Assembly: GCA_903834515.1 (NCBI GenBank)
Contig: CAILJM010000011.1
Span: forward strand, 62,001 to 126,000
DNA from: an uncultured Actinomycetes bacterium
Lineage (GTDB): Bacteria > Actinomycetota > Actinomycetes > Nanopelagicales > Nanopelagicaceae
Direction: 5' to 3'
DNA: 64,000 nucleotides
Both the position numbers and the translations under genes were made by a program. The notes beneath the pieces are model-generated. The model was not told the origin of the DNA. It searched no databases and saw nothing but the letters and a program-made list of their open reading frames with translations. How positions within the stretch are numbered: position 1 is the first letter of the stretch; each line of letters opens with the position of its first letter. This document shows positions 55,173 through 63,882 of this stretch, in pieces.

Positions 55173-55937
55173 TTAAGCCGCCTTCAGTGATGTGAGGTAT
55201 GCCTGATACTGCGCTGGTGTAACTACTTTAACTTTGAAGAGCATCTGCGAGTGATCACGGCCGCAGAGTATGTTGCAACGGCCAGGATAAGTGCCGAGCT
55301 TCTCTGCTGCGAATTCGAGATGGTTCTCAACGTGCGGCAGAGTTTGAATTTGAATCATGAAGGCTGGGATCCAGAAGCCATGTACAACATCGTTTGAGGT
55401 GAGAGTGAATCGAACTTTCTCACCAAGTGGCATCACGAGCGTTGGAGGCTGCGCCGGTGTTCCTGTAACAGTGGTATTCGGGCCAGTCCCTGCATCATCG
55501 TAAGTGAATTGCCATGACCACTGAATTGCGTTGACATGAATGTTATGTGGTGCAGTAGCTGCCGAATCAAGATGAGTGATTTTAGATTCGCCTCGCGCAG
55601 TAAATCCGAAGAGCACGAGAACGATGATAAAGGCGATAGCAGTGAGGGAAAGTTCGACCTTGTTGTTATGTCGGAATTGACGCGGAAGGCCATCGCCCTT
55701 GCGACGATTGAAGAGAACCGGATAAAAAATGGCAATCGCTGTAAGAATTCCAACAACTGCGGCGGTTATCCAAGCGCCTTGCCATAGTGGCAAAGTCGTA
55801 TCGTTGACTGAAGAGAGGCCCTTGTCATAACCAAGCCCTGAAATGTTCTTTGATTGACATCCGGTGAGCACGAAGGCGAGGCTAGAAATCGCTATTACGA
55901 GGGCGGCCTTTTTGGCAGCAGAGGGGCGCATTTGCAT
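55173..55937 (-). CDS. ctaC: Cytochrome c oxidase subunit II (lipoprotein)
   Basis: 254 aa. Lipobox LTGC (Cys27), two membrane helices, then the cupredoxin domain with the CuA ligands C221-NIL-C225-GRD-H229-SQ-M232 and WSWQF. Predicted leaderless from ATG 55937 (TAAACT-N7). Operon ctaC-ctaD-ctaF. Confidence 0.96.
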
Positions 55938-55944
55938 GACGGGA

Positions 55945-55950
55945 AGTTTA
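55945..55950 (-). promoter_or_regulatory. -10 element of ctaC, leaderless
   Basis: Minus-strand TAAACT, then TCCCGTC and ATG 55937. Confidence 0.5.
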
Positions 55951-55983
55951 TCGGGCGAACTCGCGCTCCGCTCCCGACGGGGG

Positions 55984-55989
55984 TAGCGT
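55984..55989 (+). promoter_or_regulatory. -10 element of the NifS-like gene, leaderless
   Basis: TAGCGT, then TCGAACT and ATG 55997. Confidence 0.5.
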
Positions 55990-55996
55990 TCGAACT

Positions 55997-57055
55997 ATGG
56001 GCTCAATCACAGGGATTTTCACGCGTGAAAATAGCCTCCACCCTGCCGCCCGAGAGGTCATGCTCGAGGCCATCGATCGAGGCTGGGCCGACCCTCAAAA
56101 AATTCACCATCCCTCTCGGCAACTCAGCCAGCTGCTCGACTCAAGTCGAGAATCACTCGCTCATTCGCTAGGAGCACGGCCAGAAAGCCTCCACTTCCTC
56201 GGGGAACCACACCTTGGTTTCTTCTTGGGGATTGCCGGACTTCAACTCCCCCGCGAACGGAGCTTTTATCCATCGACCGCCCGCTTAGAGGCGATCGCCG
56301 TAGCACAGGCAATGGAAGATCCCCGAAGAATCGATGTGGACTTAGATGGCCTCTGGTCGATACCTGACCATTCTGAGCGAGATCTCCTGATTCTTCCCAC
56401 CGCAAACCTTGAGACGGGAAACATCTCGCCCGAATCGACTCACTTTCAGGGACGGATTTTCGTCGACGCAACGGCTGGGCCATGTGAAAAAATGCCCACA
56501 TCCTGGGGCGCTGCCCTCTGGGAGGCGAGCAGCTGGCGGGGACCAGCAGGTCTTGGAATCTTTGCAGTCCAGGATGAGGTCTCGTGGAGAAATCCACTTC
56601 CGCATCTCGATGGTCGCAAGACGCCGGCCTCCTTCAGTCCTTCCCTCGCAATTGCCGCCGCAGTCGCACTCGAGGGTTCGATGAAAGATATTGAGCGTTC
56701 GCGTACGGAGACGCTTCGGCTCAATTCTCTGCTTCGGCGCTTTATCGATGAAGAAATTGGAGATGTCGACATCGCTTCATCGCAGAGCGCTCTTCCACAG
56801 ATGCTCTCGTTCTCATTTCTCTATGTGGATGCCGAACAACTTGTTGATCGTATGTCTCGTTCCGGGTTCCTAATCGATTCGGGCTCAGCATGTACGAGTG
56901 CAAATCTTGAGCCAAGTCATGTTCTTGCCGCGATGGGTCGGCTTACTCATGGAAATGTACGAGTTCATCTCTATCCAGAACTCACCGAGGATGAGCTACT
57001 TAAGATGCTACAAACCCTCAAGCAACATGTGCTCGATCTGCGATCAACTCTATGA
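55997..57055 (+). CDS. Degenerate cysteine-desulfurase-like protein lacking the PLP lysine
   Basis: 352 aa, class V aminotransferase (NifS/IscS) fold by overall alignment: HPSRQLSQLLDSSRESLAHSLGA, LPTANLETGNISP (from NNETG), RIFVDA, and the sulfur-carrying SGSACTS with Cys299. However, the SxHK site is EASSWRGPAG (176-185), so the Schiff-base Lys is Ser179 and the His is Ser178; the phosphate-binding SGATE is LGEPH; and the first His of the TEH motif is lost. It should not bind PLP covalently. The catalytic Cys is kept. Its stop overlaps the TusA-like start (ATGA), suggesting a joint sulfur-handling role. Confidence 0.75.
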   Translation: MGSITGIFTRENSLHPAAREVMLEAIDRGWADPQKIHHPSRQLSQLLDSSRESLAHSLGARPESLHFLGEPHLGFFLGIAGLQLPRERSFYPSTARLEAIAVAQAMEDPRRIDVDLDGLWSIPDHSERDLLILPTANLETGNISPESTHFQGRIFVDATAGPCEKMPTSWGAALWEASSWRGPAGLGIFAVQDEVSWRNPLPHLDGRKTPASFSPSLAIAAAVALEGSMKDIERSRTETLRLNSLLRRFIDEEIGDVDIASSQSALPQMLSFSFLYVDAEQLVDRMSRSGFLIDSGSACTSANLEPSHVLAAMGRLTHGNVRVHLYPELTEDELLKMLQTLKQHVLDLRSTL

Positions 57056-57255
57056 AAGACCTTGATTACAGAGGGTTGCGTTGCCCGATCCCTATCATCA
57101 ACTTATCTCGCGAGATTCTCGATTTACCTAACGGCGAGGTAGTGAAACTAGTAAGTGATGATCCGGCCACATGGCCCGATCTACAAGCGTGGGCGAGAAT
57201 GACCAAGCGAGAAGTGGCCAAAATTGACGAAATCACATTCACGATAAAGAAATAG
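57052..57255 (+). CDS. TusA/SirA-family sulfur-carrier-like protein
   Basis: 67 aa, a single TusA fold: DYRGLRCPIPIINLSREI with the persulfide Cys11 in CPxP, GEVVKLVSDDPATWPDLQAWA, then the final strand. Normally receives sulfur from IscS. ATGA coupling to a desulfurase-like gene without a PLP lysine makes the donor question open. Converges with the kinase gene. Confidence 0.85.
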   Translation: MKDLDYRGLRCPIPIINLSREILDLPNGEVVKLVSDDPATWPDLQAWARMTKREVAKIDEITFTIKK

Positions 57256-61989: not shown

Positions 61990-62841
61990 ATGCGCAAGAT
62001 AGTAATCCGATCGATCGTGCTCGCGCTTTTCGTAATTCCAACATCGGGCGTACCGATCGCATTCAGCGCGAACTCATCCCCGCAGCGGATCGTCTCGTTA
62101 TCTCCAAGTGCGACAGAAGATCTCTTCGCTCTTGGTGCCGGCAAACAAGTAATCGCGGTCGATTCACTCTCAAATTATCCAACCCGAGTACCGATTTCAG
62201 ATTTAGATGCATTCTCTCCAAACGTGGAAGCTATCGCTTCGCGCAAGCCTGATCTTGTAATTTTGCAATCATCTGCCACCAAGGCGCAATCAGTAAAGCA
62301 GGCGCTTGAAAAACTTCATATACCTGTCTATTTTGAAGTAACTCCAGATACGGTTGATGGTGCTTACGCAGAAATTCTTGCTCTCGGCAATGCCACAGGT
62401 CATTCTGCACAATCCAATCGACTTGTTACTGCAATGAAGGCTTCGATCGCCAAGGCAATCGCGGTTGGGCGTAGATCATTTCCTCTGACAATTTTTCATG
62501 AAGTAGATAACACCCTCTACTCGGCAACATCGAAAACTTTTATTGGTCGTGTCTATTCAGATTTCAATACGATAAATATTGCCGATGCTGCCGATACCGC
62601 CGATAGTTATGGGTATCCACAGCTCACAAGTGAATATGTCATTAAGGCTAATCCGGCTGTTATTTTTCTATCCGATGGAGAGAAGGTAAAAAACGTAGCC
62701 TCTCGTGCGGGTTGGAATACTGTCGCTGCCGTTGCGAACCGCCACGTTGTTGTATTGCCGGACGATATTCCTTCTCGATGGGGGCCACGCTTGGTGAATT
62801 TTTATCAATTTGTCTCCACTCATGTGAAAGCAATTAAGTAG
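61990..62841 (+). CDS. btuF: Cobalamin ABC transporter substrate-binding protein
   Basis: 283 aa. Cleavable signal peptide (about 1-26, ending AFSA), then the BtuF/FhuD-type helical-backbone fold: RIVSLSPSATEDLFALGAGKQVIAV, NVEAIASRKPDLVIL, and the C-terminal NRHVVVLPDDIPSRWGPRL. No lipobox cysteine, unusual for a binding protein of a monoderm. The riboswitch upstream identifies B12 or a precursor as ligand. Confidence 0.88.
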   Translation: MRKIVIRSIVLALFVIPTSGVPIAFSANSSPQRIVSLSPSATEDLFALGAGKQVIAVDSLSNYPTRVPISDLDAFSPNVEAIASRKPDLVILQSSATKAQSVKQALEKLHIPVYFEVTPDTVDGAYAEILALGNATGHSAQSNRLVTAMKASIAKAIAVGRRSFPLTIFHEVDNTLYSATSKTFIGRVYSDFNTINIADAADTADSYGYPQLTSEYVIKANPAVIFLSDGEKVKNVASRAGWNTVAAVANRHVVVLPDDIPSRWGPRLVNFYQFVSTHVKAIK

Positions 62842-62850
62842 GAGTCAGAC

Positions 62851-63882
62851 ATGATCAACGTGCGCCGCGAGAAAGAATCAGGGATCGAGCCAATTTGGAA
62901 TTGGCAAATCACTGCCGCTTGCGCTCTTGTGCTTCTATTCGTGGGAATTGCGGCGATCAGTTTCGGTCCAATTAACATCGCCTTCGCTGACATCGTTCGC
63001 ACCGTCTTAGGAATTCACGGAGGCCTATCCGGACAAGATCGGACCGTACTCCTCGATCTTCGGTTGCCAAGGGTTTTGTTGGCAGCCCTCGTTGGAGCAG
63101 CACTTGCGACAAGTGGAGCGGTATATCAATCTGTCTTTCGCAACCCCCTCGCCGACCCGTACTTGTTAGGTGCAGCGAGTGGCGCAGGACTGGGGGCCAC
63201 GATTGCAATAATCAATGCACACGGAGACGTGTACAGCCTTCTTCCTATCTTCTCTTTTGTCGGCGGGACTTTGGCTGTCCTTACATCGTTCTTCATATCT
63301 GGTCGTTTTTTTGCCGAACCTCAATCGTTGCTTTTGAGCGGGATAGCGGTTGGCTCATTTGCGACGGCAATTCAAACCTACCTCCAACAGCGACATAGTT
63401 CGTCCTTGAGACCGGTCTACTCCTGGATATTGGGCGAACTCACTGTTGCCAACTGGCAAATAGTCACATGGTCGTCAATCTACATTTTACTCGCCCTCGC
63501 CATTCTGATCTCGATCTCAAAACAACTCGACGGACTGATGCTCAGCGATGAAGAATCTTTCTCGCTCGGTATCAATCCAAATCGACTGCGTATCATCGCA
63601 GTGAGCGCGGCAACGCTGGCGACCGCCACCGCGGTCTCGGCATCCGGCCTGATCGGATTCGTGGGAATCGTCGTGCCTCATCTTGTTCGAGGGATTACTC
63701 ATCGCGTTACAAATCGGAACTTACTTACTGTTGCTCTCGCTGGCGCCGGTTTTCTTGTATTGGCTGACCTAGGAGCTCGAACTCTTCTCTCTCCCGCCGA
63801 ACTCCCCATTGGAGTTATAACCGCCTTCGTAGGCGCACCCTTCTTCCTAGTAGTTCTTCGTCGCCGAAGGAGCGCATCTTAA
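62851..63882 (+). CDS. btuC: Cobalamin ABC transporter permease
   Basis: 343 aa, FecCD family with about ten membrane helices. LRLPRVLLAALVGAALATSGAVYQSVFRNPLADPYLLG is abbreviated here as RLPRVL...NPLADPYLLG; GLIGFVGIVVPHLVRG is the ATPase-coupling region. AGGAG ribosome-binding site 9 bases after btuF. Confidence 0.92.
   Translation: MINVRREKESGIEPIWNWQITAACALVLLFVGIAAISFGPINIAFADIVRTVLGIHGGLSGQDRTVLLDLRLPRVLLAALVGAALATSGAVYQSVFRNPLADPYLLGAASGAGLGATIAIINAHGDVYSLLPIFSFVGGTLAVLTSFFISGRFFAEPQSLLLSGIAVGSFATAIQTYLQQRHSSSLRPVYSWILGELTVANWQIVTWSSIYILLALAILISISKQLDGLMLSDEESFSLGINPNRLRIIAVSAATLATATAVSASGLIGFVGIVVPHLVRGITHRVTNRNLLTVALAGAGFLVLADLGARTLLSPAELPIGVITAFVGAPFFLVVLRRRRSAS

Follow-up and report, generated by a model that had tools for sequence, protein, structure and literature searches.

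The gene considered here encodes a protein that aligns with cysteine desulfurases, retains their persulfide cysteine and has lost the lysine that holds PLP, which raises the question of what a desulfurase fold still does once its PLP site is gone. We analysed a stretch of 64,000 nucleotides (the window) from a 1.48-Mb actinobacterial genome. The named relatives among its matches include Candidatus Planktophila and other acI-type MAGs, from which we label the window's family "Nanopelagicales-type". Both open reading frames of the preliminary description were found as claimed: a gene of 352 codons, termed here the pseudo-desulfurase, overlaps through an ATGA a 67-residue TusA-like gene with a CPxP motif (Table 1). 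The TusA-like protein scores 38.7 bits on the NCBIfam equivalog model for E. coli-type TusA, below the cut-off of 78. The 59-bp region upstream is presumably a promoter region common to ctaC and the pseudo-desulfurase gene. Ser178 (56528-56530) and Ser179 (56531-56533) are both encoded by AGC and Cys299 by TGT. At window positions 61990-63882, a pair of neighbouring genes with products of 283 and 343 aa resembles, by eye, the binding protein and permease of an ABC importer for iron or cobalamin.

Table 1. Features of the pseudo-desulfurase locus, in window coordinates.
Feature	Position	Strand	Basis
Pseudo-desulfurase of the class I IscS/NifS fold, without its PLP site, 352 aa	55997..57055	+	ORF, PF00266, AlphaFold2, Foldseek
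LGEPH (residues 68-72), at the place of the PLP-phosphate loop SGT of active enzymes	56198..56212	+	Alignment
Arg96, replaces the PLP-stacking His (IscS His104)	56282..56284	+	Alignment; PMC9978102 for the role of His104
Glu139, aligned with pocket residue IscS Glu156	56411..56413	+	Invariant, lysine-bearing and lysine-less
Asp157, aligned with IscS Asp180	56465..56467	+	78/82 lysine-less orthologues
Ser178-Ser179, for His-Lys of SxHK (Lys = IscS Lys206)	56528..56533	+	Alignment
Cys299 in the SGSAC loop, persulfide cysteine (IscS Cys328)	56891..56893	+	162/162 orthologues
Arg322 (IscS Arg354, substrate carboxylate)	56960..56962	+	81/82 lysine-less orthologues; PMC9978102
TusA-like sulfur carrier, 67 aa	57052..57255	+	PF01206, E 4.4e-15; sole TusA of the genome
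CPIP motif of TusA (Cys11)	57082..57093	+	CPxP in 132/132 adjacent or fused TusA
Intergenic region between the pseudo-desulfurase gene and divergent ctaC, 59 bp	55938..55996	.	ORF coordinates
ctaC, cytochrome c oxidase subunit II, conserved divergent neighbour	55173..55937	-	

Family models recognise the protein in part. Pfam Aminotran_5 (PF00266) matches above its cut-off, covering only the C-terminal third, and the NCBIfam equivalogs fall far below theirs (TIGR03402, 82.5 versus 530.75 bits; TIGR02006, 51.6 versus 643.2 bits). Among sequences of solved structure, the IscS of Mycobacterium tuberculosis (4isy) is the closest; E. coli IscS and human NFS1 come next, and A. fulgidus IscS ranks lower. 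AlphaFold2, run with 61 sequences, gave a model with a mean pLDDT of 94.4 and a pTM of 0.92, its confidence being lower (block means 70-81) at the N-terminus and around the Cys299 loop. Foldseek assigned this model to the fold-type I aminotransferase class V fold, with TM values of 0.81-0.87 to the best IscS/NifS/Nfs1 matches and of 0.83-0.86 to the E. coli IscS of the IscS-TusA complex 3lvj; the lysine-less A. fulgidus IscS (4eb5, 4eb7, 4hvk, 4r5f) is among the close matches. Of the marks of an active class I desulfurase, the protein has the fold and the SGSAC cysteine and lacks the PLP lysine, the phosphate loop, the stacking histidine and a score above the NCBIfam cut-off. It shares with the PLP-less IscS of the A. 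fulgidus type the replaced lysine and the kept loop cysteine.

Alignment with canonical IscS of the same class, including that of the window's own genome (L049, with SAHK), bore out the residue assignments made earlier. The histidine and lysine of SxHK correspond to Ser178 and Ser179, LGEPH aligns with the SGT of the phosphate-binding loop, the stacking histidine has given way to Arg96, and the persulfide loop SGSACTS with its cysteine is intact. The conserved Asn137 was rejected as the substrate-binding asparagine, since IscS Asn155 aligns instead with Leu138, where Asn is not kept. A stand-in lysine, which would have counted against the preliminary description, was also looked for, and none is general: the candidate, Lys35, is Arg in 72 of the 80 lysine-bearing orthologues described below and in 25 of 29 other lysine-less ones. 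This Lys35 (window 56099-56101) is fixed in the Nanopelagicales-type proteins (48/48). In E. coli IscS, changes at Lys206 or His104 reduce desulfurase activity to nil, and the K206A variant still binds some PLP (PMC9978102). We infer that the pseudo-desulfurase neither binds PLP nor acts as a desulfurase.

Orthologues came from three sources (relatives, named genomes and a sample across the class Actinomycetes) and were aligned with the canonical IscS of the same genomes. No search required the cysteine, and the DNA pattern that was run against the named genomes sits just downstream of Cys299. Relatives matched at E <= 0.001 in 56 of 60 genomes, some of these by canonical IscS only. We counted 162 near full-length orthologues, including five lysine-less ones that are second copies within the same genomes. 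The split between them is unusually clean for one locus: the lysine at the PLP position is present in 80 and absent in 82, and a mutated Cys299, for which we looked throughout, never occurs in either group. Every orthologue read from the Nanopelagicales-type family is lysine-less, and the same state is found in Cellulomonas/Promicromonospora, Terrabacter, Friedmanniella and others. An error of sequencing or a frameshift confined to this one gene was discarded as an explanation because every orthologue that was read in the family shows the same state. Orthologues with a normal lysine, which the preliminary description would have taken as counter-evidence, do exist, only in other families; their presence there shows the descent of the pseudo-desulfurase from a real desulfurase. 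Two records carry unexpected versions and are probably mislabelled or mixed bins: L095 (JANWJC010000165.1, titled Acidobacteria bacterium) has the actinomycete version, and L065 (QYPT01000044.1, titled Streptomycetaceae bacterium) the Nanopelagicales-type one.

The rest of the cofactor site follows the lysine. Gly71 of the phosphate loop is present in 80/80 lysine-bearing versus 10/82 lysine-less orthologues, and the stacking histidine in 80/80 versus 12/82, with Arg at that position in 62 of the 82 (His to Arg in 44/48 Nanopelagicales-type and 11/11 Cellulomonas/Promicromonospora proteins). The lysine-less set retains the PLP-site Gln in 3/82 and the Ser of SxHK in 9/82. Going by the alignment and the roles assigned to residues in PMC9978102, the equivalents of IscS Lys206, His104, Gln183 and Asn155 are replaced. 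The lysine position itself is occupied by Ser (43), Ala (17), Asp (13), Thr (5), Gly (2), Val (1) or Met (1). Kept in this set are Glu139 and Cys299 (82/82 each), Arg322 (81/82) and Asp157 (78/82), and ten further sites besides Cys299 are invariant across deep divergence. Position 176 (window 56522-56524) is Glu in the window and Asp in 49/82 lysine-less proteins. The changes at positions 96 and 176 may have refilled the emptied PLP pocket, in the case of Arg96 by salt bridges. Judged from the alignment, the loss of the PLP site with retention of Cys299 is more than chance.

The lysine-less genes are under strong purifying selection, and their constraint is no weaker than that of lysine-bearing pairs: by a simple Nei-Gojobori count, dN/dS is 0.055-0.136 in four near lysine-less pairs and about 0.11-0.25 in lysine-bearing pairs. 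In trees with canonical IscS as an outgroup, the lysine is ancestral. A 115-row tree gave five changes at this site; across the bootstraps of a careful 44-row tree the number was six to seven. No bootstrap tree has a single origin of the loss; strongly supported branches force only two changes, and the AU test of one lysine-less clade gave p 0.132. Several losses, five to seven by parsimony, thus appear likely in these trees and are not proven, one loss being compatible with the AU test. A stepwise series, from loss of the lysine to loss of TusA to loss of the gene, is visible inside one family. In one sister genus, 5 of 15 genomes (G105, G128, G210, G219, G269) have lost both the desulfurase homologue and tusA and kept ctaC, which shows that the pseudo-desulfurase is dispensable.

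The neighbourhood is well conserved upstream and less so downstream. An adjoining, divergent ctaC was found at 140 of the 154 loci with enough upstream sequence (69/79 lysine-bearing, 71/75 lysine-less), and erpA is often a neighbour. Where at least 500 bases of downstream sequence were available, TusA follows in 78/81 lysine-bearing and 52/77 lysine-less loci; one of the three lysine-bearing exceptions, G044, does have a TusA by genome search. TusA is fused to the desulfurase in Streptomyces and Kitasatospora (lysine-bearing) and in one lysine-less genome (L155) and, where present, is a single copy at this locus in nearly all genomes. The coupling to TusA proposed at the outset therefore holds in most lineages, but TusA is not an obligatory partner: there are close relatives that retain the protein and have no TusA anywhere in the genome. 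Twelve complete single-contig relatives have the pseudo-desulfurase without TusA, and in the seven that were read the lysine is absent and Cys299 present. A genome-wide search of the TusA-less genomes found none elsewhere, which rules TusA out as their acceptor. That it is the acceptor everywhere is thus not supported, and the suggested link to nadA or erpA chemistry likewise lacks support. The lysine-less homologue without tusA was recorded in L021, L024, L026-L029, L062, L137-L142, G032, G061, G078, G165, G174 and G244; the cysteine is kept wherever it was read in these cases, and several of these genomes, each complete in one contig, lack TusA throughout.

Possible sulfur donors are encoded at other loci of the genome. 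A canonical SufS, which scores 575.9 bits and exceeds the cut-off, adjoins the sole NifU_N/SufU-like gene, on another contig than the pseudo-desulfurase. A canonical IscS adjoins mnmA (G000:C27:47962-49746), the two likely forming a pair devoted to tRNA thiolation and distinct from the TusA locus, and rhodaneses are also present. Two candidate clients were rejected. PF02597 (MoaD/ThiS) has no match in five TusA-bearing relatives, each at least 95% complete, and the carriers for molybdopterin and thiamine are thus not the general client in this lineage. MnmA occurs with and without TusA, next to canonical IscS, and is therefore not tied to this locus.

We tentatively favour the view that the pseudo-desulfurase is a PLP-free persulfide relay or docking scaffold with an IscS fold, descended from a class I desulfurase paired with TusA. 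The ancestor would have been an actinobacterial class I cysteine desulfurase encoded with TusA and divergent from ctaC, and its PLP site would have been lost by the Nanopelagicales-type bacteria as well as by further lineages of actinobacteria. Cys299 would still be presented on a mobile loop, would be loaded by SufS, by the IscS next to mnmA or by a low-molecular-weight persulfide, and would give its sulfur to TusA where present and to another acceptor where TusA is absent. We infer the persulfide on Cys299 and its transfer to TusA, as well as the donor and the final client, from the following. The lysine and the cofactor site were lost while Cys299 was absolutely retained, and the lysine-less genes show purifying selection. 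TusA with its CPxP motif lies downstream of two-thirds of the lysine-less loci or, in L155, in the same protein, and nearly always as the only copy. Canonical SufS and IscS are available as possible donors, and the fold matches that of the E. coli IscS of 3lvj, which hands sulfur to TusA (PMC8300815, PMC11446229). Against the relay stand the twelve complete relatives without TusA and the loss of the gene in a third of the sister-genus genomes. Nor is there, to our knowledge, a precedent for sulfur passing from SufS or IscS to a second protein of the IscS fold. The original interpretation, a persulfide scaffold or relay supplied from elsewhere, thus keeps its basis in the uniformly lysine-less family, the fixed cysteine and the selection on the gene, and loses TusA as universal acceptor. 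On a broader scale, and with slightly less assurance, the desulfurase fold may have been turned, probably repeatedly, into a PLP-independent persulfide carrier in Actinomycetes, giving up its chemistry, retaining the loop that carries sulfur and in most cases the TusA partner, and forming a second relay tier downstream of SufS/IscS next to the respiratory ctaC locus.

Next in rank after the persulfide relay, though unlikely, comes a role in which Cys299 carries no sulfane sulfur and serves as ligand to a metal, or to an Fe-S cluster under assembly, that a partner also binds. The candidates would be SufU, ErpA from the gene nearby, or copper destined for the CuA site of CtaC. In PMC7585200 and the papers that it cites, A. 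fulgidus IscS is described as lacking the lysine and desulfurase activity and as giving a cysteine ligand to the [2Fe-2S] cluster on IscU, and Methanosarcina acetivorans IscS1 as likewise without the lysine. The close fold match to the A. fulgidus structures fits this role, as do the conserved ctaC and frequent erpA, and it would explain why the cysteine is retained where TusA is lost. However, the genetic partner is TusA and not an IscU-like scaffold, the SufU-like gene lies with sufS elsewhere, and ctaC is kept in genomes without the gene. Whether by relay or by ligation, the lysine-less homologue now probably passes sulfur on, or holds metal, instead of releasing sulfur.

A non-catalytic partner or regulator, such as an inactive hetero-oligomer subunit, that directs sulfur flux through its binding to TusA or to an active desulfurase seems quite improbable. 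Its fold is that of the live enzymes, an inactive paralogue activates a live one in trypanosomatid deoxyhypusine synthase (PMC3663545), and competing partners control IscS and SufS (PMC11446229), but such a role leaves the invariant Cys299 unexplained, also in TusA-less lineages. That the old pocket retains some catalysis or has gained a new activity, with PLP bound non-covalently or another ligand held by Glu139, Asp157, Arg322 and the new Arg96, is doubtful to a like degree. The conservation of the first three residues, the recurrent arginine, the PLP retained by IscS K206A and the Lys35 fixed in the window's family could all accommodate it; the phosphate loop, the stacking histidine and the Ser/His of SxHK were nevertheless lost together, position 179 varies among seven residues, and Lys35 is Arg in most other lysine-less proteins. 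Transient decay, with the lysine lost first, TusA next and the gene last, has all three stages among the relatives but is very improbable, and unlikely already from the selection data, given intact reading frames, low dN/dS, eleven invariant sites including Cys299 and a lysine-less state that spans whole families.

Lysine-less homologues are spread across many actinobacteria and are most typical of very small freshwater species; such proteins, present as they are in very abundant freshwater bacteria, should not be tallied as cysteine desulfurases. Proteins that lose a cofactor and keep one functional residue are natural experiments on which part of a protein matters, and here the carrier or scaffold role of class I desulfurases, separate from their chemistry, becomes directly testable. 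We found no description of this actinobacterial locus, lysine-bearing or lysine-less, in the open-licence papers searched, which does not in itself prove novelty, and no annotation of it in plasmid records.

Among known systems, A. fulgidus IscS and M. acetivorans IscS1 resemble the window protein in their class I fold and replaced PLP lysine. The A. fulgidus protein is archaeal, has IscU as its partner and is proposed to ligate a cluster, whereas the window protein has TusA as its partner and lies beside ctaC; unlike in the archaeal cases, lysine-bearing orthologues at the same locus indicate a separate loss of the lysine within Actinomycetes. The E. coli IscS-TusA complex (3lvj) has in common with the window the fold, the pairing of an IscS-type protein with a CPxP-bearing TusA and the SGSACTS loop, but E. 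coli IscS carries PLP on Lys206 and makes its own persulfide. PLP-free persulfide carriers such as TusA and rhodanese-type proteins would share with it a mode of action through a carrier cysteine alone, and their folds are unrelated to that of the window protein. A further counterpart is the lysine-bearing desulfurase encoded with TusA at ctaC, an orthologous locus that shares the cysteine loop and TusA. This version, fused in Streptomyces and Kitasatospora and separate in Nocardioides, Streptosporangiaceae and Micromonosporaceae, has SAHKWGGP, SGT and EHS, and its members are presumably PLP enzymes.
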